DNA of 64,000 bases from an uncultured Bacteroidales bacterium (GTDB taxonomy: Bacteria > Bacteroidota > Bacteroidia > Bacteroidales > P3): positions 1 to 64,000 of the forward strand of contig CAJOHZ010000019.1 of assembly GCA_905234695.1 (NCBI GenBank), in the 5' to 3' direction. A program made the translations under genes and the position numbers. The notes under the pieces are model-generated. The model was given only the letters and a program-made list of their open reading frames with translations. It searched no databases and was not told the origin of the DNA. This document shows positions 6,601 to 45,562 of the stretch, piece by piece. How positions within the stretch are numbered: position 1 is the stretch's first letter; each line of letters starts with the position of its first letter.

Positions 6601-9337
6601 GCTGGAAGGTGCTGGTACGATTCTGCCAACTGCTCTGCAGGTTCAGTTTCGTGCCACCGTCAAGGGAAATCCAACCCGTGGGGGTAGTGGAGGTGTAACC
6701 GGACGTAGAGGTGTTACCATTGGGCAGCTGTCCGGCGGTAAGCGTAGCCGTGGCAGGAGCCAGCCACGCACGAATATAGTCATAGTTGCTTTCGCCATAG
6801 GCCTTCCAGTCATACGAGTAGAGGTATTCGCCCGTGTCGGCCAGGTTGAAGATGCGGGTGGCGTAGACGATGCTCTGACTACCCACAGTGTAGGCGTTGG
6901 CAGTGCCGTTGTTGGTAATGTACATGGACTTGGTACCACCGTTATTGGTGGCAGTGCCCACCATCCAATGGTTGGTCTGGGAGCCGTTGACGAAGTCCCA
7001 GCCGTTGGTGCCGCTGCCCTCGAAGGTGCAGCTGTAAGGCATCGTGGCGGGGAGGCTGGTCAGCGTGAGGCTTTCCCACGGACTGGGGTCACCGTTGCAG
7101 TCGGCGGCCACATACACATAATAGGTTCGACCCGTATCGAGGTAGTTGAGCAAATAGGTGGTGTCATAGGCCACATCGGTGAAAGTGGCGGTACCGGCGC
7201 CAGGGGTGAAGGCCACGGTATCGTACTCAACATACCAAGAAGAGGCGGTGCCTACTTCCGTCCAGCCGATAGCCGCCCAGTCGACACTCATACTGTCAAA
7301 GTGGAGATTGCCGACATGCGGGCAAGCAGGTATCTCCATCAGAGTGATGTCATCGACACTGGCATACCAACTGCTGGTGGGGCGGTTGGCCCGGATGGCG
7401 ACATACTGGCCATTACCCGTGAACGACGAGAAGGGAATCTCAAAGATATTCCACTGTCCGGAATTACCCACATTAACCGTCTGAACCAGCTGGAAAGTAC
7501 TTATGTCGTTTGGATTCGTCATCACACCCACCTGGAAAACGGGGGAGTAACTGGTGCTGGTGGCCTTGGCCCAGAAATTGAGCTGCAAGGTATTCATGGC
7601 ATACATATCGGTATCCACACCCGGCAGGACAACTATCTGGTAGTCGCCATAGGTGTTGGTGGTAATGCTATTATACCAATAGAGGCCTTTGCCGCCTCCC
7701 GTAGTATGGTTGTAGGAAGCAGTGCTGCTCACATAAGGCCAACCATAATAGGAGGAACCGTTGTTAAGACGGGTCATGCAGTTTACAAAAGTGGCCGACT
7801 GGCTACCGCCTACGGTGGCTGCCTCGAAGTCCTGTGTGTAGGGAAGGCTGTCGAGAGCGACACAGGGTGTACGAAGCGTGAGGGTCACGGCCAACGAGGT
7901 GTCGTCGACTCCGCACACGCCACGCAATGTGAAGGTATAATTGGTGTTGGGGGTAAGATTGTAGAAAGTAGCTGTGCTATCGTAGAAATCATTACTCACG
8001 CCGTTGGTGTCGATAGTCCACTGTATGTCATTGATGCCCGGAGTCCACCCGAGGGTAACCTCGTCAGAAGATACGGCCACGGCATGGAAATTGGAGGAAC
8101 GAGGACAGCTATTTGAGAAACAATTGACACTCAACTCATAGCCTCCATTGTTGACGCTAACGTCGGAAGTGAAGACAATAGTAAAACCCATTTCCGAAAT
8201 AAGGGGACCAATGTTGACGACCGTTCCGCTAGAGGGGCTGCTACCATAGTGCAGACGGGTTCCATTGGTGCCAACACCTTCATATATGGAGAGGTAGTCA
8301 CAGCACCCTTCTCCCACATAGGTACCAGAGAGTATCAGTGCCGAGTCGGGAGAGTTGGAACGAATCACAAGTGTATTATTGGAATTGTTGGCATAGCTGC
8401 CGTTAGGGCCACCATTGTCGTAAATGACAGCATTGCAGGTACGGATGGAGTCGAACGATGCCGTCATATTGTAGTGCAGCACTGTCGACAGGGTCTGGAA
8501 AGTTATCTGTGTAAGAAAACTTTCTTCGGTGGTGCAGAGAGATTTGACTTTGACCACGTAGTTCTCATACTCATAGAGACCAGTAATAGAATAGGCAGTG
8601 TCGTAGACATCCACCGAATCAATCAGGCTGAGGGTGTCGGCCGGAGCCCAATAAAGGCGGTAGGCACCGGCGTTGGCGGTGTCCCTCCAGGTGATGTCGG
8701 CCGAGGAAAGGGTGATGTTGGAGGCCGTCAAGCCGAAAGGCATGGGGCAACTCTGGCTGCTTGGGGCGTAGGTGAAAGTAACCTTGGGAAGGAAGTCCTG
8801 CTGGTCGGCATAGGCATCGCTGACATCAGAGTAGTCATAGCCCTGAACACTGGAGCCGGTGCTCGTGATGCCGTACCAGTAACTATGTTCATAAGAATCT
8901 GTCGAGGTCGAGACAAATTCAACCAGCAGATTGCCGCCCGTGTACGTATAGGGCGAAGTGAAGGTAATCACCATTTGGTTGCTGCTGTTCATGCTCGGAA
9001 CACCGTTGTAGACGGTGGTAAGGGTTTCCGTGCTCCAGTCAGAGAGGGTCGAGGCCGCGGTGGTGCCGACCTTCACCTGAAAAGTCACACTACCCCAATC
9101 GGCAAAGGCATTGGCATAGAAGGTCATCGAGGTGATGGTCCCTCCTGTCATTGCCGCCAAGTCGGAGCCTGGGTAAATCATCTGCGCACGTAAATATGCG
9201 TCACCATAGTAGCCATAGATGGGGACATACTCGTTGGTCGCTGTCCCGTTGGCCACGGTCAACTGCACTTGCGCATTCACTGCCCAAGGCATCAGAAACG
9301 CCACAAGGAGCAGAAGTTTTTGTAGATGTTTTTTCAT
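1..9337 (-). CDS. Giant secreted modular surface/adhesin-like protein (signal peptide, FN3-like modules, CUB-like and choice-of-anchor/MAM-like modules, divergent InlB B-repeat-like tandem units); 3' end lies outside the window
   Basis: Translating the minus strand from ATG at 9337 gives MKKHLQKLLLLVAFLMPWAVNAQVQLTVANGTATNEYVPIYGYYGDAYLRAQMIYPGS..., and the parts I translated stay open. The ORF track lists only out-of-frame minus ORFs here, as expected if this frame has no stop and runs off the edge. Repeated 'CPxxxGLxxSNITxxSADITW..' FN3-like modules and 'YTVTATANDASYGTVTGGGTYNFRDTVTLTATANTGYYFRSWNDG' repeats are visible. Confidence 0.85.
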   Translation of the reverse strand, partial: MKKHLQKLLLLVAFLMPWAVNAQVQLTVANGTATNEYVPIYGYYGDAYLRAQMIYPGSDLAAMTGGTITSMTFYANAFADWGSVTFQVKVGTTAASTLSDWSTETLTTVYNGVPSMNSSNQMVITFTSPYTYTGGNLLVEFVSTSTDSYEHSYWYGITSTGSSVQGYDYSDVSDAYADQQDFLPKVTFTYAPSSQSCPMPFGLTASNITLSSADITWRDTANAGAYRLYWAPADTLSLIDSVDVYDTAYSITGLYEYENYVVKVKSLCTTEESFLTQITFQTLSTVLHYNMTASFDSIRTCNAVIYDNGGPNGSYANNSNNTLVIRSNSPDSALILSGTYVGEGCCDYLSIYEGVGTNGTRLHYGSSPSSGTVVNIGPLISEMGFTIVFTSDVSVNNGGYELSVNCFSNSCPRSSNFHAVAVSSDEVTLGWTPGINDIQWTIDTNGVSNDFYDSTATFYNLTPNTNYTFTLRGVCGVDDTSLAVTLTLRTPCVALDSLPYTQDFEAATVGGSQSATFVNCMTRLNNGSSYYGWPYVSSTASYNHTTGGGKGLYWYNSITTNTYGDYQIVVLPGVDTDMYAMNTLQLNFWAKATSTSYSPVFQVGVMTNPNDISTFQLVQTVNVGNSGQWNIFEIPFSSFTGNGQYVAIRANRPTSSWYASVDDITLMEIPACPHVGNLHFDSMSVDWAAIGWTEVGTASSWYVEYDTVAFTPGAGTATFTDVAYDTTYLLNYLDTGRTYYVYVAADCNGDPSPWESLTLTSLPATMPYSCTFEGSGTNGWDFVNGSQTNHWMVGTATNNGGTKSMYITNNGTANAYTVGSQSIVYATRIFNLADTGEYLYSYDWKAYGESNYDYIRAWLAPATATLTAGQLPNGNTSTSGYTSTTPTGWISLDGGTKLNLQSSWQNRTSTFQLNQVGAYQLVFMWANDGSSGSTPPAAIDNVSLVHNTCPGVQGLEASYVTSDSIVVVWQPGGSETIWIVSNGVDTTEVYDTTYTFDNLFANTPYNILVWALCDNGDTSIATSLAVRTACGAMMLPFSEDFNSYAANSFPACWTRILNSNNYPYITTSYGNCIQFGGLASAITPRLSVPLNQVVVSFDLQVESTSSSGAMHFGYTRNPNSVDSMVDLHVFTPASTYTYYHYEFDLSNDSCADTVYLVWRPDGSTAWYYWMDNLVIDRASTCPAIEGLRTSAVSNSFATVAWTDTASAQHVEYMVYIATTDNIAAAFDSASVIGATNYTFTGLHGNTHYYVWVKGVCYDADSRFRSIDFTTSVDCVPVSNLHATPDYHSFTLSWDAPTTGEPVTGYIVEYKLASASTWTTATTTNNYYYVGSLTPNTLYDYRVHTECDTVNSTNVSGSVQTSGCATLVTEGGATHNYLPTQQYYEYSYTQQIYLNSELTGLDTITDIAFHVEDGYTCSSRNIVIYMGNTTQSSFSSTSNYIPAANLQQVYTGTLSGTGWLSFHLTTQFIRTAGSNLVVAVDDNTGSYTSTISWTATATSNARALYFYQDDTDITPASPSASNSGAVNYVNQIKLTNLTCVIPDCGTPTPTVTDVQANQATIAWEPEAGQVYTVAYRLATDTAWTIVDSTNTTGTYTFQGLAPALDYVARVSTDCNSQILSGTVSFSTLCAPAALPYTEDFENHSGVYNRTCWTIGSTNLGSSYPNPTVVNLTGDPNKLCLFWNGAYAIMPRMDAPLNQLQIRFYFVQGGNNVRFLMGLMDDPNAPISTMRVLDTIIRSQIDSTTSYINYTYRFDNLAESDSAAHIAFWDAFNDNYSFLDNIVVEYIPNCQPVTGLTATNVTASSADIDWVDNNTASTGYVVEYGLHGFTAGTGTRVNTAMAPYTLTGLNHSSSYDAYVYTVCGTDTAIASQVINFSTACGAITALPYTMNFEGYVSAGSTATNILPTCWNTEATGAYIYYNTNNSQAPSQSYALQLMGSGIVVLPEMGVPLDSLMVTFHDYNVNGYGLVVGTIDASATSGYATSFVPVDTILFEHGVNASTVSSYLTDYTGTDTRIALKAYGNSGTGVSHYIDNLVIDRIPSCIAPQRVQCAVLTNVSADITWRTSQAASYSVEYGPHGFVPGTGTASTVTTRSLSLTGLTPLTQYDVRLVSLCSATEVSDTTVFTFTTMRAAPVMTYPYICDFSDSTIANAWEPVNGTQANKWYVGTAAHYGTADNMGMYISNDNGTSNSYNTSNTSHTYAYRSFNMPAGSYNISFNWMANGEGGSTYAYDYLRAFLAPGDANIEAGYCPDGTTSSYNFWNVTPAGWISLDGSAPLRGNSSWQSLSTDVSIATSGTYHLVFYWGNDGSSGSNPPAAVDNIEVFRNSCAAPVNITAVTAGTTYLDVDWTDVDSGTVSWQLRYGLAGTSNDTIINVASHPVSLTGLDTLTSYSVSVRPICSGSDTGRWSSPVDLMTSMCDNATIASNFTSSSSTTSYFPGYSCYNYSYVQMIIDSADMAAIAGDISAMSFKPVSGTAADYGSYFNQINVYLANVSESTLSGFIHPDSTTHQFVQVVNNGNWNFTDDNWQIKSFDTNFTWDGHSNVLVAINRLMGTYSCTANFEAHSASGNKMCYVYNDDNAYDINTVTGGTTTSTLGNIRLYSCGATGCRQPNLTSSTGDYQSHTITWSGNGTAYEVACKTTDTPTWPTAETVTTTSKTFTGLQPATVYMFRVRQDCTIDSLGYSNWVEGFFTTDSLPCLAPDSLTALSTTNTTATFGWTARGNETAWDIRVFSTTTDTTYTVTTNPATVGGLHAGVTYYAAIRALCGNAQNIPGDWSDSIQFATQICPTVTGVTTSNVTFNSVTLNWPAATLAQGYEVEYGMHGFTQGNGTSLPAATNSLTVSGLMDETQYDFYVRAVCGTNWHSENWSALVTVTTLTAPSTTFNITATVNPTNAGTVTGTGVYAQGDTATLTATANAGYTFNRWNDNVTLNPRSVVVTSDSAFTAFFTRNQYTVTVTSADQTRGTVTGNGTYYYGDTATLTATAATGYHFTQWNDGDTHIVRTLVVTSDTAFTASFGVNQYTVTATANDASYGTVTGGGTYNFRDTVTLTATANTGYYFRSWNDGNVDNPRVFVVTGDVTYTALFAADSVPPVQNYTVTLNANDANMGIVNG

Positions 9338-9600
9338 AACAAGTACTTTTGATTAATAATTGAATAATTTGATGTTGTTTTCTTTGTTTTGGTTTTGTTT
9401 TCGCCCATCCCGTTTCGTTGCAGAAAATATGTTAACTGTTGCATATCAACAGCATACCCTTTCCCGCAGGAGTGCGGGGCGTGCGATGATTAAGTGGACA
9501 AAAATAATACTTTTTTTTCACTTTTACGGCTTTTTTCATCGCCCACAGAAGATTTAACATTTATTCGCAATCTCTATCATTTTTCACCCCTGTGTGTCGT

Positions 9601-9790
9601 AGGTTCTCTCGGTGTGCCTTTTATGTTCCTTTTTCCTTCCTTCGGTTCTTATCTTACACATTTCCAACACTTCTCCCTCTGTTCTCCCCTATATACGTTG
9701 GAGAACTGTTGGAGAACTGTAGGAGAACTGTTGGAGAACAACCGAAGGAACACCGAAAGATCATAAAAGGAAGACCGAAAGAACTCCCTC
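9601..9790 (+). repeat. Structured intergenic repeat element, copy A (contains a 4-unit 11-bp tandem array GTTGGAGAACT at 9697-9739)
   Basis: Shares TTTTATGTTCCTTTTTCCTTCCTTCGGTTCTTATCTTACACAT...CTTCTCC...array...CCGAAGGAACACCGAAAGA..CATAA with the copies at 43578 and 43874. Confidence 0.75.
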
Positions 9791-13224: not shown

Positions 13225-15336
13225 TTAGAAGAATCTGTAGCGCGAATCGATAATCTTGACGTTGTCTTTCAACACCTGCATCACGCCCCGCATCTTCTGA
13301 GCATAGCTCTGCTGCATCTGGCTGCGGATGGCGTCGGCGGGAACCGCCTGCGGGTTCTGGGCACGGCTGTTGATTTTGACCATATAGACACCGCTGGCAC
13401 CCTGGATGGGGCCGATGAAGGCGTTGTCGGGGGCGGCAGCGATGGCGGCCTGGAGCTTGGGCTCCATGCCATACTGGCCCACAAAGTAGTCGTTGAAGGA
13501 GATGCTGTCGAGCGTATCCACGGCCACATTGAGTTTGGCGGCCACGGAGGCGATATCGGAGGCTGTCTTGCGGGCCTCTTCGGCACGGGCGATGAGCAAC
13601 TCGGCGCGCTTCTCAATACGCACCTGGTTCTCCATCATGTTGCGCACCTGTTCGAGGGTGGCATAACCTTGCTTGTAGACATCCTTCAGTGCCACGACGA
13701 TGTACTGGTCGTCGGCCTGGAAGACCTGGTCGGCCACTTCGCCGATCTCGGTCTTGTCGGAGAAGGCCCACTGCATGATGGAACGGGCGTTCTGGATGCC
13801 ACCGAGGGTGTAGGACATGGAGTTGACCATACCGTTGCGCACTTGGAGGTTCTCGGCCTGTGCAGCAGCGGCCATCTCCTGGTAGGTGCGGTTGTTGCCG
13901 GCAAAGATATTGGCGGCATTATAGACGGCACGGGAGGTGGCTTCAGAGGCCACGATGGCGCGCTCAATGGCAGCGACACGGTATTTGCGGTTCGGTGTGG
14001 TTTTGCCCGTCACCTTGACGATGAAATAGCCCAACTCGTTGGGATGTTGCATAAGGAAGATGCCTCCCACAGGGGTGGCGAGGATGCGCTCGTTGAGGAA
14101 ACCATAGGCACCATCGAGCTGCCATTTGCCATCGCCGTCGTCGCGCGGGTCATCGGAGAATTGACGCACCGCAGCCTCAAAGGTCATGGCACCGCTGTTG
14201 AGGATATTCATGACGCTATCGGCAAGGGTCTTGGCTTGCTCGTCGCCACGGGTGATGTTGCCACCCACACGCTCGTTGAAGATGTAAATGGTGCTGGCGC
14301 GGAGGCTGTCGGGACGGTTCTCGATCTTCAGCACCTTGGCCATCATCCATTCATTGCCCACGATGCGGGGGCTGATGAACGAGCCTTCTGGGGTCGCCAG
14401 AATGGCGGAATCCATCGGAGCGGGGAACTCGCTGGCCTTGCGGTAAGCGGAGTCATAGGAGTGGTCGGACTCGGCATTGACGAAGAACTCCAAGCTGGAA
14501 GCGGGCTCCTCTTGGAACTCCACCCAAGTCTTCTGGACGCTCTCGGCAATCTTGGCGATATCCTCTTCGCTCGGAAGCACGGGATAGACAATGTAGTCGA
14601 GTTCGCGCAACTCCTCACGGATGCGGTACTCGGATTTGTGTTTCTCGTAGTAGGCGGCGTAATCTTCCTCGGTGAGGGTGATGTCGCCGTCGTTGACCGA
14701 CTGGTAGGGGAGGTTGATGGCATAGACGTTGCTCACCTTGCTGCCCATCTCGGCAATCTGGTTGGCGATGGCGGTAGGCATGTACATGCCCTGGGAGAGC
14801 AGCGTATTGTATTTCTGCTGACGACGGTCGGCAGTGACGGCCTCTTCGAGGTCGATCCACTCCAGCCGCTGGGCGGTGTCGAGCTTGTCAAAGTTGTCGA
14901 CATACTGGCGGATGGCCTTCACCTGGTATTCGCCGGTCTGCGGGTCGGTGAAGACTTGACGCAGATAGGGGTGGATGAAGGTGCCGTAGTACATGTCGTT
15001 CAACTCGGCCTCGGAGACGGTGAGACCCAGTTTATCGTACTGCTTGCCGGTGAGGGTTTCGCCCACGAAGTTCTGCCACACCTGCTCGCGCAGTTGGTTC
15101 TCGACTTCGGGTTTGATTTGGGCGACATTCTGCTGCCGCTTGTAGGTGTCTTCGGCCTCTTCGCTGAGTTCAAGGAAATGGCGGTAGGTCAACACGACCC
15201 CGTCAACCTTTCCGACATCCTGGGTGTTGGCTCCTTGTCTGGACCAAACATCGCCGATAATGAATGCCACGATAGCGAGGGCCACAAATCCGACAGTTAT
15301 CTTCGGATGTTGTCTGATTTTTCCTATAATTCCCAT
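13225..15336 (-). CDS. PpiD/SurA-N-like peptidylprolyl isomerase, membrane anchored
   Basis: N-terminal TM (MGIIGKIRQHPKITVGFVALAIVAFIIGDVWS) and SurA_N / parvulin-like regions; 703 aa. Confidence 0.85.
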   Translation of the reverse strand: MGIIGKIRQHPKITVGFVALAIVAFIIGDVWSRQGANTQDVGKVDGVVLTYRHFLELSEEAEDTYKRQQNVAQIKPEVENQLREQVWQNFVGETLTGKQYDKLGLTVSEAELNDMYYGTFIHPYLRQVFTDPQTGEYQVKAIRQYVDNFDKLDTAQRLEWIDLEEAVTADRRQQKYNTLLSQGMYMPTAIANQIAEMGSKVSNVYAINLPYQSVNDGDITLTEEDYAAYYEKHKSEYRIREELRELDYIVYPVLPSEEDIAKIAESVQKTWVEFQEEPASSLEFFVNAESDHSYDSAYRKASEFPAPMDSAILATPEGSFISPRIVGNEWMMAKVLKIENRPDSLRASTIYIFNERVGGNITRGDEQAKTLADSVMNILNSGAMTFEAAVRQFSDDPRDDGDGKWQLDGAYGFLNERILATPVGGIFLMQHPNELGYFIVKVTGKTTPNRKYRVAAIERAIVASEATSRAVYNAANIFAGNNRTYQEMAAAAQAENLQVRNGMVNSMSYTLGGIQNARSIMQWAFSDKTEIGEVADQVFQADDQYIVVALKDVYKQGYATLEQVRNMMENQVRIEKRAELLIARAEEARKTASDIASVAAKLNVAVDTLDSISFNDYFVGQYGMEPKLQAAIAAAPDNAFIGPIQGASGVYMVKINSRAQNPQAVPADAIRSQMQQSYAQKMRGVMQVLKDNVKIIDSRYRFF

Positions 15337-38819: not shown

Positions 38820-40205
38820 TTAGTGTTCCAGCAGCTCCTTGGCCCGCTGCAGCGAGATGCGCTCGCCGTTGTGGAAGGCCACGACAAAGGCATCCTTGAA
38901 GCCCTTCTCGCGCACCGTCTTCTGCAAGGCCACCGCCTCACGCGCCGAGCGGAACCGTCCGGTGGTATAGCGGTATACCCCTTTCTGCAGGTAGTATTCG
39001 TGGTCGGTGAGGCCTTTGAACTCGCGGTCGTTGTCCTTCAACGCCTTGTTGCTGCTGAGGAACTGCACCTTGTACACCACCCCTATCTGCCAGTCGTCGG
39101 CCTGCGCGGCGCCGGTCTGCTCCTTCTCGGTCTCGGTTCCGTCCACCCCTGTCGACGGCTCCGCCGCGGGGGTCTCTACCGTCGTACCCTTCAGGGGCTC
39201 CTCCTTGGGCAGCGGGGGCTCCACATGGGTCTCCTCGTTCGACACCACCAAGTCCGCCGGCGGAACCACCGGAGTCGTCGCCGCAGGGGCGGCGGGGGTG
39301 GCTTCCGTCACAGCCGGAGTCTCTGTGGCGGCAGGGGTTTCCTGGTCCGCGACAGGCACCTCATTGGCGGTGCCCTTCTGCTTCGATGACACCGGCAGGT
39401 CTATCTTCAGGTTCGTGGGCTTCTTGACCCCCTCCGTGGCACTCTTGTACGACACAAAGGCGTTGAAGATGCTCACCACGATGGAGGCTTGTCCCTCGTC
39501 CGACATCATGTACTGCTCCTCCTCGGGGTTGCTGATAAAGCCCACCTCGGTCAGCACCGCCGGCATGGCGGTCTTGTACAGCACGAATATCTCGGCCTGC
39601 TTCACTCCGCGGTTCACCGTCTTGATGGCTTTCTTGTACTGTTCCTGGATATACTGCGCAAAATCCAGACTCTTGTCCAGATAAGCGTTCTGATACATGG
39701 CAAACATCACATAACTCTCGGGAGAATTGGGGTCGAATCCCTGGTAGTCGCTGTTGTCCTTGTAGCCCTCTTCCAGCAGGATGTCGGCATTCTCTTTCTT
39801 GGCCACCTCCATGTTGGCGCGACTCTGCGAAAGACCCATCACGTAGGTTTCCACACCCGTGGGCGTGCTGTTGGTCCAGGAGTTGCAGTGGATGGAGATA
39901 AACAGGTCGGCCTTCGCCTTGTTGGCAATCCGTGCCCGCTCGGCCAGGTCGATGTCCACATCCGTGGTGCGGGTGTAGACTACCTTCACGTCGGAATAGT
40001 TGTCCTCTATCAGCTTGCCCAGCTTCAACGCCATCGACAGGGTGAGCTCTTTTTCCTGCGATTTCTTGCCCACGGCACCTGGTTTCGCACCCCCGTGACC
40101 GGCGTCAATGACCACTGTTTTCACCTGTCCCACGGCTTTTTTCTGTGCAAAAGCCACATTATTCACACACGCCAGCACAATAATAAGTAAGAATAAACGT
40201 TTCAT
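38820..40205 (-). CDS. N-acetylmuramoyl-L-alanine amidase (Amidase_3) with C-terminal SPOR-like region
   Basis: MKRLFLLIIVLACVNNVAFAQ signal; VVIDAGHGGAKPGAVG; FISIHCNSW. Internal ATG at 40205 chosen over the ORF-track start at 40505. Confidence 0.9.
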   Translation of the reverse strand: MKRLFLLIIVLACVNNVAFAQKKAVGQVKTVVIDAGHGGAKPGAVGKKSQEKELTLSMALKLGKLIEDNYSDVKVVYTRTTDVDIDLAERARIANKAKADLFISIHCNSWTNSTPTGVETYVMGLSQSRANMEVAKKENADILLEEGYKDNSDYQGFDPNSPESYVMFAMYQNAYLDKSLDFAQYIQEQYKKAIKTVNRGVKQAEIFVLYKTAMPAVLTEVGFISNPEEEQYMMSDEGQASIVVSIFNAFVSYKSATEGVKKPTNLKIDLPVSSKQKGTANEVPVADQETPAATETPAVTEATPAAPAATTPVVPPADLVVSNEETHVEPPLPKEEPLKGTTVETPAAEPSTGVDGTETEKEQTGAAQADDWQIGVVYKVQFLSSNKALKDNDREFKGLTDHEYYLQKGVYRYTTGRFRSAREAVALQKTVREKGFKDAFVVAFHNGERISLQRAKELLEH

Positions 40206-40252
40206 TTTCAATTTTATATTTTTTAATTTCTCTATATTGCGTAAATTATTGG

Positions 40253-40260
40253 TATCTTTG
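40253..40260 (+). promoter_or_regulatory. Bacteroidota -7 box TATCTTTG upstream of lptD-like gene
   Basis: TATCTTTG; GTG start 37 nt downstream. Confidence 0.5.
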
Positions 40261-40296
40261 CAATCCAATTGCAAAGATACAAGTAAAATCGGGAAA

Positions 40297-42939
40297 GTGA
40301 AAAAGTCTGTGTGGAAAGTTTTGAACATCTGCCTGTTAGTCGCGTCCGTCGGGATGTGGACTCCGGCCTTTTCGCAGGTGGACACACCCCGAAATAATCC
40401 CGATTCGGCCGCCGCCGGGGCCGCTTTGCCCCCCTCCGTCGCCGACACCGCGGCAAAAAAAACAGCCCCCTCCGGCCTCGTCCCCATCTCGCCCAACGCC
40501 ATCACCCATATCGTCCACTACCTCTCCGAGGACTCCGTCACGTTCGACATCCGCGAGCGACGGGCGCAGCTCCACAACAACGGCAGCATCGTCTACGACG
40601 ACATGACCCTCGAAGCCGACGACATCCAGGTCGACTTCAACCGGCAGATGCTCTACGCCCGCCCCCTGGCCGACAGCAACGGCAAGGTGCGCGGCCACCC
40701 CTTCTTCAAACAGGGCGAGGCGGAATACATTGCCGACACCATTGCCTTCAACTACAACACCAAACGAGGGCTTATCTCGGGGGTCATCACCCAAGAGGGC
40801 GAGGGATTCCTCCACGGCTCGCGGGTCAAGAAAATGAACGACTCGGTGATGTACCTCAACAGCGGCCGCTACACCACTTGCAACTACGCCCATCCTCATT
40901 TCGCCATCAACTTCACCCACTCCAAGCTCATCACCGGCGACAAGATTGTCACCGGCCCCGCCTACGTCACCATCGAGGACGTCCCCACCCCCATCGCCGT
41001 TCCCTTTGCCTTCTTCCCCATGACCCACGGCCGCGCCTCGGGCCTCATCATCCCCTCCTACGGCTGGATGAACAACCGGGGTTACTACCTCAAGGACGGC
41101 GGCTACTACTTTGCCGTCAACGACAACCTCGACCTCTCCCTCCTCGGCGAGGTCTACACCAACCTCAGCTGGGCCGCCGAAGCCAAGAGCAACTACTACC
41201 GCCGCTACAAATACAAGGGGGCCTTCGACATCCGCTACGGCATCACCAAGGAGGGCATCTACGGCGACACCAACACCTATAACCGTTACAGCGACTTCAA
41301 GGTCACCTGGCAGCACACCCAAGACGCCAAAGCCAACCCCTACAGCCGCTTCTCAGCCAACGTTAACCTCCAGAGCCGCAACTACAACAAGAATACCTCC
41401 AACCGCAACGACTACTTCAACAGCACCACCACCTCCTCCATCTCCTACTCCGCCCAGCTGGGCCGCTCTTTCAGCCTCGCAGCCTCCCTGCGCGAGTCCT
41501 ACAACGTCCAGACAGGCCTCATGAACCTCAAACTGCCTTCCCTCTCCCTCAGCTCCACCACCTTCTACCCCCTCCGCCGTCGCCATCCTTCCGGTGCCTA
41601 CCGCTGGTACGAGAACATCTCCCTCTCCTACTCCCTCTCGGCCGACAACAACATCACCGCCCAGGACTCCGACCTCTTCAAACAAGCCACCCTCGACCGG
41701 ATGCAATACGGTGTGCAGCACTCCATCCCGCTGAGCAGCAGCATCAAGGTACTGAAATACTTCAACTGGACCAATTCCGTGAGCTATAACGAGCGGTGGC
41801 ACTGGAGCACCATCCACAAAAGCTTCGACACCGTCACCTACCGCACCGTCATCGACACCGTGCGCGGTTTCCGCTCCAACCGCGATGTCAGCCTCAACAC
41901 CTCTCTCTCCACCCGCATCTACGGCATGTTCCAGTTCAAATACGGTCCCCTCAAGGCCCTGCGCCACGTCATCAACCCCTCCGTGTCCTTCAATTTCCGC
42001 CCCGACTTCGGCAGCGACCGTCTTGGCTACTGGCAGTCCTACTCCGACCCCAGCGGCTACGTCTACCGCTACTCCATCTTCGAGCAAAGCCTCTACGGAG
42101 GCCCCTCCGACGGCCGCTCGGGACAGGTGCGTTTCAATATCGGCAACAACCTTGAAATCAAAGTCGCCAACCCCAAGGACACCGTCACCGGCATGAGGAA
42201 AATCACCCTGCTCGAAAACCTCAATTTCTCCATGAGCTACGACGTCACCCGCGACTCCCTGCGCTGGTCCGACCTCGCCATCACCGGGCGCACCACCCTC
42301 TTCAAGAACATCATCCTCAACTACTCCGGCTCCTTCAGTCCCTACTACATCGACACCATGGGGCGCAAACACGACCAATACCTCTGGGACGTCCACCAGA
42401 AACTCTTCCAACGCACCAACTCCACCTGGAGCACCCAGGTGGTCCTCTCGCTCAACAACAACACCTTCAGCGACGGGGAGACGAAGTCCGACGCCGGCCA
42501 GCAAATCGTCGCCCCCATCATGCAGTCGCCCTACAACTACAACCCGGCCCTGCTCATGGGCACCTACGCCGACTTCTCCGTGCCTTGGAACCTCTCGCTC
42601 AACTACACCCTCAGCTACGTGAGCACTTACGTCGCGGCCCAATACGACCTCCAGAACGACCTCGTCCAGACGCTCAGCGTATCTGGCAATTTCAATCTCA
42701 CCCCCAACTGGCGTGTGGCCATCTCCACCGGCTACGACTTCGTCAATAAAGGCATGTCCTACACCTCCGTCGACATCTACCGCGACCTCCATTGTTGGGA
42801 GATGCGTTTCAACTGGGTCCCCTTCGGCTACTACAAAAGCTGGAACTTCCAAATCAACATCAAGGCCAGTTCCCTGCGCGACATCAAATACGAGAAACGG
42901 CAGACCTATCAGGACAACCACGGCTACTACTCCTATTGA
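40297..42939 (+). CDS. LptD/OstA-like outer-membrane LPS assembly protein
   Basis: GTG start yields signal peptide (V/M)KKSVWKVLNICLLVASVGMWTPAFSQ; OstA-like N-terminus ('RRAQLHNNGSIVYDDMTLEADDIQVDFNRQMLYA'), large beta-barrel. Confidence 0.85.
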   Translation: MKKSVWKVLNICLLVASVGMWTPAFSQVDTPRNNPDSAAAGAALPPSVADTAAKKTAPSGLVPISPNAITHIVHYLSEDSVTFDIRERRAQLHNNGSIVYDDMTLEADDIQVDFNRQMLYARPLADSNGKVRGHPFFKQGEAEYIADTIAFNYNTKRGLISGVITQEGEGFLHGSRVKKMNDSVMYLNSGRYTTCNYAHPHFAINFTHSKLITGDKIVTGPAYVTIEDVPTPIAVPFAFFPMTHGRASGLIIPSYGWMNNRGYYLKDGGYYFAVNDNLDLSLLGEVYTNLSWAAEAKSNYYRRYKYKGAFDIRYGITKEGIYGDTNTYNRYSDFKVTWQHTQDAKANPYSRFSANVNLQSRNYNKNTSNRNDYFNSTTTSSISYSAQLGRSFSLAASLRESYNVQTGLMNLKLPSLSLSSTTFYPLRRRHPSGAYRWYENISLSYSLSADNNITAQDSDLFKQATLDRMQYGVQHSIPLSSSIKVLKYFNWTNSVSYNERWHWSTIHKSFDTVTYRTVIDTVRGFRSNRDVSLNTSLSTRIYGMFQFKYGPLKALRHVINPSVSFNFRPDFGSDRLGYWQSYSDPSGYVYRYSIFEQSLYGGPSDGRSGQVRFNIGNNLEIKVANPKDTVTGMRKITLLENLNFSMSYDVTRDSLRWSDLAITGRTTLFKNIILNYSGSFSPYYIDTMGRKHDQYLWDVHQKLFQRTNSTWSTQVVLSLNNNTFSDGETKSDAGQQIVAPIMQSPYNYNPALLMGTYADFSVPWNLSLNYTLSYVSTYVAAQYDLQNDLVQTLSVSGNFNLTPNWRVAISTGYDFVNKGMSYTSVDIYRDLHCWEMRFNWVPFGYYKSWNFQINIKASSLRDIKYEKRQTYQDNHGYYSY

Positions 42940-42969
42940 ATCCCTCCACCACCAAATATCCCCCGCATC

Positions 42970-43284
42970 ATGAACAACAAGCTCTACTACTCCATCGGCG
43001 AAGTCTCGCGAATGCTTAACGTCAACAGCTCCCTGCTGCGTTTCTGGGAAACGGAGTTCCCTAACCTCCGACCCCACAAAAACAAAAAAGGCAACCGCTA
43101 CTATACGGAAGAGGACATCGCCCTGCTGCGCCATATCTATCACCTGACGCGCGACTGTGGCTACACCCTCGACGGAGTCCGCGAGCAGTTGCGGCACACC
43201 GGCCCCGACGACGACCGCATGGCGGTTGTCCAGACCCTCACCGAGACCCGCGAGTTCCTCCTCTCGCTGAAAGAGATTCTGTAG
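42970..43284 (+). CDS. MerR-family transcriptional regulator
   Basis: YYSIGEVSRMLNVNSSLLRFWETEFPNLRPHKNKKGNRYYTEEDI. Confidence 0.9.
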   Translation: MNNKLYYSIGEVSRMLNVNSSLLRFWETEFPNLRPHKNKKGNRYYTEEDIALLRHIYHLTRDCGYTLDGVREQLRHTGPDDDRMAVVQTLTETREFLLSLKEIL

Positions 43285-43297
43285 CTTCTTAATGTTA

Positions 43298-43315
43298 ACA
43301 GGCCTTCGGCCTTTT
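43298..43315 (+). terminator. Terminator after merR gene
   Basis: AGGCC-TTC-GGCCT followed by TTTT. Confidence 0.6.
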
Positions 43316-43464
43316 AGAAACTGTTTTAATTGATGAATTTTGTTATACAGCAAGGCGAGCAGATTTTTCTTCTTTTTGAGGGAGCAATGGGGGTCCATTG
43401 TGACCGAGAAAAGGAGGGAAAGAGTGTTAAGAAAAACATTGGATTAATTTTAAACAGTTTCTTA
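43316..43464. mobile_element. MITE-like element with ~19-20-bp imperfect terminal inverted repeats
   Basis: Left AGAAACTGTTTTAATTGAT and right end (reverse complement) AGAAACTGTTTAAAATTAAT; ~150 bp, no substantial ORF of its own. Confidence 0.5.
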
Positions 43465-43470
43465 GTTTAA

Positions 43471-43554
43471 GTGACCAGTGACCGGCGAACCACCGGATGT
43501 GATTGGTGATTAGTGATGCGTGACCAGTGATTAGTGACTCGTGATGCGTGAATT
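43471..43554 (+). repeat. Degenerate heptamer array (GTGANNN)x~12
   Basis: GTGACCA GTGACCG GCGAACC ACCGGAT GTGATTG GTGATTA GTGATGC GTGACCA GTGATTA GTGACTC GTGATGC GTGAATT in strict 7-bp phase. Confidence 0.8.
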
Positions 43555-43577
43555 TTTTTAGTTTTAATCTTCTCCCA

Positions 43578-43764
43578 ATCGTCTCTCGGAGTGGTTTTTA
43601 TGTTCCTTTTTCCTTCCTTTTACTCTTATCTTGCACATACCCAGTACTTTTCTTACACTTCTCCTAAGGTACGTTAGAGAAGTGTTAGAGAAATGTTAGA
43701 GAAGCGTTAGAGAAGGACCGAAGGAACACCGAAAGAACATAAGGACCACACCGAAGCCACTCCC
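43578..43764 (+). repeat. Structured intergenic repeat element, copy B (11-bp array GTTAGAGAANN x4 at 43673-43715)
   Basis: GTCTCTCGGAGTGGTTTTTATGTTCCTTTTTCCTTCC...CACTTCTCCTAA...array...CCGAAGGAACACCGAAAGAACATAA...GCCACTCCC. Confidence 0.8.
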
Positions 43765-43873
43765 TTGTTGGTGAGTTGTGAGTTTAAGTTTTTAGTTTCA
43801 GTTTGTAATGAAAAACAATTAAACAATCAACGATTAAACAATTTTTAGTTTTTACCTTTTAGTTTCTCCTAGC

Positions 43874-44046
43874 CGTCTCTCGGAGTGGCTTTTATGTTCC
43901 TTTTCCCTTCCTTCGGTTCTTATCTTACACATACCCAGCATTTTTCTCGCACTTCTCCCGACATAGGTCGGAGATACGTCGGAGAAACGTCGGAGAAGAG
44001 CAAAAGGAAGGGCGAAGGAAGATAAAAGGAACACCAACACCACTAC
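43874..44046 (+). repeat. Structured intergenic repeat element, copy C (11-bp array GTCGGAGANAC x3 at 43967-43998)
   Basis: GTCTCTCGGAGTGGCTTTTATGTTCCTTTTCCCTTCCTTCGGTTCTTATCTTACACATACCCAGCA...CACTTCTCCCGAC...array. Confidence 0.8.
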
Positions 44047-44095
44047 GATTGAAAATTGGATACCAGCCGATTGCAAATTATTCTCAACGCAATCT

Positions 44096-44126
44096 CTTGA
44101 CAATTGAAAAATAGGTTGTATCTTTG
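44096..44126 (+). promoter_or_regulatory. Bacteroidota promoter upstream of rseP (CTTG-N19-TATCTTTG)
   Basis: TATCTTTG at 44119-44126, TTG ending at 44099. Confidence 0.5.
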
Positions 44127-44164
44127 CACGTTAAAACATACACCTATCCTTTCAACAACCATTC

Positions 44165-45562
44165 ATGAAAGCTCTTGCCTTTTTAATCAGTTTGTCGCTG
44201 TTGGTGGTGACCCACGAACTGGGACATCTCTGTTTCGCCAAACTGTTCCACACCCGCGTACGGCGGTTCTATGTGTTCTTTAACTGGAAATTCTCTCTTT
44301 TCAAAGCCAAGAAATTCGACGGAAAATGGCATTTCCTTTTCTTTAACTCGCAGACTCCCGAGTCGTGGGACGAGAAGAACCTGAAACCCGAGGACCAGGA
44401 CAACACGTTGTGGGGCATCGGCTGGATACCGCTGGGCGGCTACTGCGACATCGCAGGAATGATTGACGAGACCAAGAGCGCGGAGGATTTGGAGAGCACC
44501 CCACAGCCGTGGGAATACCGCACCAAGCCCCGCTGGCAGCGGCTGTTCATCCTCTCGGGCGGCGTGCTGACCAACTTCATCTCGGCATTGCTTATCTTCA
44601 CGGCCATATTCTCGCACTGGGGCACCGACGAACTGCCCTTGCGGAACGCCAAGATGGGGTATGAATACCACCAGATACTGCTGGACGAGGGATTCCAAAA
44701 CGGCGATATCATCTATACCATCGACGGTGAGGAGCAGACCGACTACGAGGCCACGCTGAAGAAGCTGGTGATCGGGATGCCGCAGGAGGTGACCGTGATG
44801 CGGGGCGACAGCCTGGTGACCCTGCACCCGAGCAAGGAGATGCTGGCCCGCATCAACGCCGAGCAGCCCAAGACGCTGATGGATGTACGCTTTCCGTTCG
44901 TCATCAAGGACTTCACCGCCGGCTCGGCAGGCAAACGGTATGGCCTGCTGACGGGCGACAGCCTGGTGAGCGTGTGCGGCACCGCCACGCCCACGGCAAT
45001 GGACTTTATGACCACCCTGCCCCAGATTGCCTCCGACACCGCCGTAATCGGGTTCTACCGCAGCGGCGAATACCACGAGTTGAGCATCCCCCTGTCGAGC
45101 GACAAAAAAATCGGGGCGTATGCCAGGAACGTGCTTGAGATATACGAAGTGAAGCATGTGGACTACACCTTCTGGGAGGCCATCCCCGCGGGCATCAGCC
45201 ACGGATGGAGCAAGATGGTGGAGTATGTCTCTTCGCTGAAGATACTCTTCACGAAGAACGGCGCCCAGAGCCTGGGCGGCTTCATCAGCATGGGAAGCCT
45301 GTTCCCCAACACATGGGACTGGCTCCGTTTCTGGAACCTGACGGCTATGCTGGCACTGGTGCTCGCCTTTATGAACATCATCCCCATCCCCGGCCTCGAC
45401 GGCGGGCATATCGTGATTACCCTGTGGGAGATGATTACCGGCAAGGCGGTCAACGAGAAGGTACTGAACGTGATACAATACATTGGACTGGGGCTGCTGC
45501 TGCTGTTGCTGGTGGTGGCCAACGGAAACGACCTATTCCGTTTATTCAGTGGCATGTTCTAG
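44165..45562 (+). CDS. rseP: RIP metalloprotease RseP (site-2 protease family)
   Basis: VVTHELGHLCFAKLF zinc motif; PDZ region; IPIPGLDGGHIV. Confidence 0.9.
   Translation: MKALAFLISLSLLVVTHELGHLCFAKLFHTRVRRFYVFFNWKFSLFKAKKFDGKWHFLFFNSQTPESWDEKNLKPEDQDNTLWGIGWIPLGGYCDIAGMIDETKSAEDLESTPQPWEYRTKPRWQRLFILSGGVLTNFISALLIFTAIFSHWGTDELPLRNAKMGYEYHQILLDEGFQNGDIIYTIDGEEQTDYEATLKKLVIGMPQEVTVMRGDSLVTLHPSKEMLARINAEQPKTLMDVRFPFVIKDFTAGSAGKRYGLLTGDSLVSVCGTATPTAMDFMTTLPQIASDTAVIGFYRSGEYHELSIPLSSDKKIGAYARNVLEIYEVKHVDYTFWEAIPAGISHGWSKMVEYVSSLKILFTKNGAQSLGGFISMGSLFPNTWDWLRFWNLTAMLALVLAFMNIIPIPGLDGGHIVITLWEMITGKAVNEKVLNVIQYIGLGLLLLLLVVANGNDLFRLFSGMF

Follow-up and report, generated by a model that had tools for sequence, protein, structure and literature searches.

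The unit length of tandem repeats normally differs from one locus to another. The STRR heptanucleotide repeats of cyanobacteria do show short tandem units of fixed length (7 bp) at many intergenic loci, and we know of no inverted arms or promoter-upstream bias among them; REP/REPIN sequences, with their RAYT transposases, form many-copy intergenic palindromes, REP being found at 3' ends; and the repeat unit of parC, on plasmid R1, is 11 bp long. The parC repeats are tandem and direct, occupy two blocks around the promoter, and bind one ParR dimer each (PMC5016525). BrickBuilt, a MITE of Porphyromonas gingivalis, is likewise from the Bacteroidales, is intergenic, is present in about 20 copies per genome in one or two species only, and has spacer-free tandem units of 23 bp between a leader and a tail, with small inverted ends (GAGACCTTTGCA/TGCAAAGGTCTC), predicted long stem-loops and associated promoters (PMC4596501).

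The repeat family described here was found in a stretch of 64,000 nucleotides from a Bacteroidales genome (the window). Among known kinds it appears to be most like BrickBuilt: it shares with it the order Bacteroidales, an intergenic position, multiple copies, spacer-free tandem units, candidate inverted ends, predicted stem-loops, an association with promoters and a narrow species range, and like MITEs in general it is short, non-coding and multi-copy (about 50 intergenic copies of ~170-195 bp). It differs in having a unit of 11 bp in all copies rather than one of 23 nt, in the 11-bp periodicity of its flanks and arms, in having promoters outside the element, and in having counterparts in sister species whose period is the same and whose units are unrelated; the BrickBuilt ends have no match at the element (two-mismatch matches in the window numbered 5, with 5.3 expected). 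The element resembles REP/REPIN in forming many-copy intergenic palindromes, but its genome has no Y1 transposase match, its build is one of 11-bp tandems, and its place is in front of promoters, not at 3' ends. With parC it shares direct repeats arranged in tandem as two blocks close to a promoter, whereas parC is a single site per plasmid, beside parMR, and the element has about 50 chromosomal copies and several unrelated units per genome; with STRR it shares fixed-length short tandem units in intergenic DNA at many loci (11 versus 7 bp). A literature search on 11-bp arrays in Bacteroidetes, outside which most subscription journals fell, found nothing relevant. At about even confidence, we read the family as a dispersed, non-coding, MITE-like DNA element built of 11-bp units, and as one member of a genus-wide class of arrays whose units are largely private to species.

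The element in the window and in its source genome

The three copies in the window, and the features around them, are as follows (fold z refers to single-strand folding).

9600-9788, + strand: copy A of the element (subfamily A, unit GTTGGAGAACT; fold z -9.1)
9697-9739, + strand: 11-bp tandem of copy A (3.9 units; TRF)
40108-42939: LptD gene (Pfam PF19838), upstream of the MerR gene
42970-43284, + strand: MerR-family regulator gene (Pfam PF13411), the last gene before copies B and C
43499-43551, + strand: 7-bp-periodic repeat of GTGATTA type, left of copy B (TRF and flank comparison)
43584-43768, + strand: copy B of the element (subfamily B, unit GTTAGAGAAGT; fold z -4.8)
43588-43597 and 43754-43763: outer inverted ends of copy B
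43673-43715, + strand: 11-bp tandem of copy B (3.9 units; TRF)
43840-43879, + strand: A+T-rich leader module of AGTTTTT type, with CTCCTAGCCG at its end (flank self-comparison)
43880-44048, + strand: copy C of the element (subfamily C, unit GTCGGAGAAAC; fold z -6.3)
43967-43997, + strand: 11-bp tandem of copy C (2.8 units; TRF)
44097-44126, + strand: Bacteroidetes-type promoter TTG-N19-TATCTTTG, read from the sequence, between copy C and the M50 gene
44165-45562, + strand: M50 site-2-protease-type gene (Pfam PF02163), the first gene after copy C

A sequence-only reading of the window had described three copies whose 11-bp tandems are private to each and are matched by the opposite arm, and inverted outer ends in copy B; the sequence and TRF bear out all of this. 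The flanks that it gave as common to the copies are so only in part: the right flank CCGAAGGAACACCGAAAGA.CATAA is present in copies A and B, but copy C has GGGCGAAGGAAGATAAAAGGAACACC instead (its right outer arm also differs in sequence from those of A and B), and the left flank, as quoted, is exact for copy A and inexact for B and C. The A+T-rich leader module is common to the left flanks of about 15 copies. Repeats of the GTGATTA type also adjoin other copies of the element, again in the left flanks of about 15.

Autocorrelation is maximal at lag 11 in each of the three copies (0.56 in A, 0.55 in B and 0.53 in C), with lag 22 next, and never exceeded 0.38 at any lag in 100 shuffled copies. 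The period is not confined to the tandem. When the array was removed, lag 11 was still the strongest, at 0.515 for the left arm (n = 37) and 0.568 for the right outer arm (n = 32), so that the whole element, and not the array alone, has an 11-bp period, and its modules stay in one 11-bp register.

Copy C lies upstream of the TTG-N19-TATCTTTG promoter, which begins about 50 nt past its end. An open reading frame on the minus strand (41353-43398) is spurious: it overlaps the LptD gene and had no match in a Pfam search. In relatives, the locus orthologous to that of copies B and C is rearranged, the LptD-MerR genes and the M50 gene lying apart or on different contigs. The meeting of these genes across copies B and C (window 40108-45562) is thus unlike their arrangement in relatives, and it is possible that the repeats mark a rearrangement breakpoint.

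Copies A, B and C belong to a much larger family, with about 50 copies in the source genome (G000, 97% complete, from a gut-type bacterium), as befits the multi-copy intergenic repeat of mobile type that had been suspected. The copies, each of ~170-195 bp, fall into at least six subfamilies. Searched as DNA, the genome yielded tens of copies. A profile search gave 47 distinct matches in the fetched loci (45 without one divergent relative and one match from another species), and further array matches lie on contigs C9 and C11. Searching G000 with the array pattern gave 44 forward and 43 reverse matches, and both orientations therefore occur; reversed-pattern controls gave none in G000 or in another species of the genus, G012. 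Several copies are at contig ends, as is expected because repeats break assemblies. Near-identical copies are found at unrelated loci with different outer flanks. Many copies carry candidate terminal inverted repeats (GGAGTGGC/GCCACTCC), the ends of which vary and the outward flanks of which are non-complementary, and no clear target-site duplication was seen in the flanks of the 47 matches. When 37 copies were aligned (the species G121 supplied two), with six subfamilies defined by array type, the array and the facing arm were seen to change together across all six, and there were losses of exactly one 11-bp unit, as in the copies at L009 and L012; that arrays are homogenised within a copy, also part of the sequence-only reading, is upheld.

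Three loci (L008, L015 and L020) have in common a duplicated right flank of 75-160 bp (85-96% identity) with a promoter-like stretch in it, and the element and promoter of these loci may have been duplicated together. A second palindromic 11-bp family is present in G000 in about 13 copies (unit CATGGGAAGAT/ATCTTCCCATG, with inverted arms), at G000:C1:155320-155500 and some 12 more places; its outer arms carry a CACCGA motif, as does the main family.

Arrays of 11 bp across the genus

The genus is large (about 120 species were covered) and apparently uncultured. A search of 120 of its genomes with the element as query gave matches in 25, and those loci that were inspected held mostly 11-bp-periodic arrays, with different units and many inverted pairs. 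Since the query has an 11-bp period of its own, this outcome is to some extent built in, and a query-free scan for tandem periods of 5-60 was therefore run on contigs of five species (1.49 Mb). It found 59 period-11 arrays: 10 in G000, 11 in G098, 19 in G024, 12 in G012 and 7 in G132, the contigs of the last four having been picked after a match in the earlier search, so that their rate may be raised. G012 had only one weak match in that search and still has its 12 arrays. In the same scan, periods 10 and 13 gave no array and period 12 gave two, while no period-11 array was found in 0.70 Mb of sequence representing five further families in the order (Poisson p 1e-12 at equal rate). Other members of the genus, represented by loci fetched for an unrelated reason (L255, L258 and L260), also have 11-bp arrays, and it is on the five sampled species together with loci from such members that the genus-wide claim rests. 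At the sensitivity used, then, 11-bp arrays are restricted to the genus. Overall, period 7 came next after period 11 in frequency; in G098, where periods 8 and 9 occur too, it ranked first.

The units of the arrays are mostly unrelated between the five species, and often private to one. A palindromic family of the form (TACGGTAGTAT)n-(ATACTACCGTA)n is confined to G012, where the unit pair ACSGTAGTATTACSGTAGTAT has 91/88 matches, with none in the 119 other members of the genus, as expected of a lineage-specific burst. The unit TTCTTCGGTNNTTCTTCGGT is present in 12 of 120 genomes of the genus, and in none of 148 across the order. Across the order the element's own unit is found only in G000, apart from one two-mismatch match in G031; the same element family is carried by a sister species in the genus, G121 (L067/L070 and L095), and a pattern scan of contigs from genomes other than G000 gave 12 scattered matches, about the chance expectation, and one real relative, L067. 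Several unrelated units coexist within single genomes (G024, G098 and G000). Most arrays have 3-5 units, and many families show a two-block layout.

Hairpins are not universal among the 11-bp arrays. An inverted partner accompanies 9 of 12 arrays in G012, 3 of 10 in G000 and 4 of 11 in G098, but none of 19 in G024 or of 7 in G132, and the median fold z of the arrays is -10 in G012 (reaching -21), -3.0 in G000, -0.85 in G024 and -0.9 in G132.

A match to a catalogued Rfam entry had been named beforehand as grounds for abandoning the sequence-only reading; there was none at the copies of the element, nor at the arrays in loci sampled from four further species. Elsewhere on these loci, L165 of G012 has, at 14352-14397, a match to the Acido-Lenti-1 sRNA that scores 47.9 bits (cut-off 37) and has a palindromic 11-bp array (14148-14250) about 100 nt away, and L164 of G024 has a Cobalamin riboswitch (98-293) and a match to DUF805b RNA (7070-7105).

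Arm co-variation and position relative to promoters

Within copies, the inner arms have a mean duplex energy of -29.8 kcal/mol, versus -25.0 kcal/mol for arms taken from different copies, and when arms were swapped none of 20,000 permutations was as good as the real pairing; with one value for each of the six subfamilies, 6 of 720 permutations reached the diagonal. The same arm-swap test gave no co-variation for the outer arms (z = -1.4; 1713 of 20,000 permutations). RNAalifold found double changes, with A-U replaced by U-A in 12 sequences and C-G by G-C in 15, but its consensus fold was weak, with only 8 pairs kept at -2.3 kcal/mol, because the arms slip in 11-bp registers; for this reason the arm-swap test was used instead. 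As the subfamilies are related by descent, the independent events of co-variation are few, perhaps three to five. The compensatory covariation proposed from the sequence alone therefore holds for the inner arms and fails for the outer ones, and the selection on a hairpin that it was taken to suggest is not supported, in view of the outer arms, the weak consensus and the mostly hairpin-free arrays of the sister species G024 and G132. What the co-variation shows is arm and array drifting together, from which selection for a hairpin does not follow: the constant feature is the 11-bp period, not the pairing. A match between arms can arise by fold-back copying inside one copy, followed by spread of that copy, and the case warns against taking co-variation between the arms of a repeat family as a sure sign of selection on RNA structure.

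The arrays are not placed at random with respect to genes. In gaps classified with a simple codon-usage gene caller made for this analysis, the arrays of the five species lie 24 in divergent, 23 in tandem and 5 in convergent gaps, where intergenic length would predict 20.8%, 58.4% and 20.8%, respectively (divergent excess p = 4e-5). For the G000 family, outward-directed TANNTTTG boxes within 250 nt were found to the right of 24 of 42 copies and to the left of 15 of 42, compared with 1 of 42 inward on each side (p 2e-8 right, 1e-4 left; these counts are slightly inflated by the duplicated right flank common to three loci), and 15 of the 24 right-side boxes are 50-98 nt from the end of the element. 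In the other four species, pooled, the boxes were outward in 33 of 95 cases and inward in 12 of 95 (p = 5e-4). The preferred position of the arrays is therefore upstream of promoters, often between divergent genes. Since these promoters point outward and lie outside the element, the arrays are outside the transcripts that they drive, and this, with the preference for divergent gaps, makes a leader-RNA or terminator role unlikely.

What might measure 11 bp?

The dispersed-element reading is favoured because near-identical copies occur at unrelated sites and because families are private to species. Whole elements would be copied as DNA to new sites by a putative enzyme, and inside each copy units would be gained, lost and overwritten in 11-bp steps, through slippage and through fold-back copying from the opposite arm, the latter causing the array and its facing arm to drift together. 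Subfamilies would represent successive bursts of spread by altered copies, and copies would persist mainly upstream of promoters, where no transcript is interrupted. Against this, no clear target-site duplication was seen in the flanks, the ends of the copies are variable, and no autonomous partner was found (a search of G000 for Y1_Tnp, PF01797, gave 0 matches). The families of G024 and G132 are without inverted arms, so fold-back copying is not general. Enrichment in divergent but not convergent gaps, where insertions should likewise do no harm, is a hint of function, and slippage alone does not account for a period of 11 in species after species. The element reading by itself leaves the length of the unit unexplained.

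One unit length, of about one helical turn, dominates the intergenic arrays of the sampled species, while the sequence is free to change; a spacing kept without its sequence has no obvious known explanation, and the testable question that it raises is what measures 11 bp. We tentatively consider, at somewhat lower confidence than the element itself, a genus-wide constraint on 11 bp that is independent of sequence, in which a promoter-upstream period would be kept for function and the sequence of the unit would be replaced completely from species to species, and even from one family to another within a genome. The function might be that of a phased nucleoprotein or of a mechanism that copies 11 nt at a time. 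The former, if true, would give the Bacteroidales a promoter-region architecture of a new kind, and the latter would be a new way for repeats and arm co-variation to arise.

The persistence of the period beyond that of the sequence, together with the position upstream of promoters, makes a serious rival of the idea that the arrays are bound by protein, although we regard it as rather doubtful. A putative DNA-binding protein, such as one of the ribbon-helix-helix or nucleoid type, would lie along one face of the helix, one subunit to each 11-bp unit, and would regulate or insulate divergent promoters from upstream; the unit would drift with the specificity of the protein, giving each species its own. 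The usual size of the arrays, their two-block layout in many families, the closeness of the right-side boxes, the divergent excess and the parallel with parC of plasmid R1 (PMC5016525) are all in keeping with this. Yet the several unrelated units in each of G024, G098 and G000 would need several proteins, the inverted arms that are strong in G000 and G012 are unneeded by such a model, and some 50 copies identical by descent point to the spread of an element.

That the element is transcribed, its long hairpin acting as a leader, terminator, RNA-stability element or sRNA, seems improbable. The strong single-strand folds of copies A, B and C, the still stronger ones in G012, and the co-varying inner arms would agree with such a role, but the promoters face outward from outside the element, with almost none facing inward, there is no preference for convergent gaps (5 of 52 arrays), and the two strands fold about equally; nor do the weak consensus, the outer arms, the hairpin-free arrays of sister species or the lack of an Rfam match speak for a structured RNA. 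More improbable still is a REP/REPIN-like nature, with mobilisation by a Y1 (RAYT) transposase, for although the repeats are palindromic, intergenic and many in number, and Y1_Tnp genes are present in G012, G024, G132 and G121, no match was found in G098 or in G000, and tandem units of this kind and length are unlike REP; for G000, with its 97% completeness and about 50 copies, mobilisation by RAYT is rejected. Chance low-complexity sequence, to which purine-rich and pyrimidine-rich arms might have lent some self-matching, is refuted by lag-11 identities above those of all shuffles, by the reversed-pattern controls, and by the 59 arrays of the genus against none in other families.

A longer repeat is also present near the start of the window, where TRF reports a 207-bp tandem (143-622; 2.3 copies, 74% matches) that is probably within a repetitive coding region.
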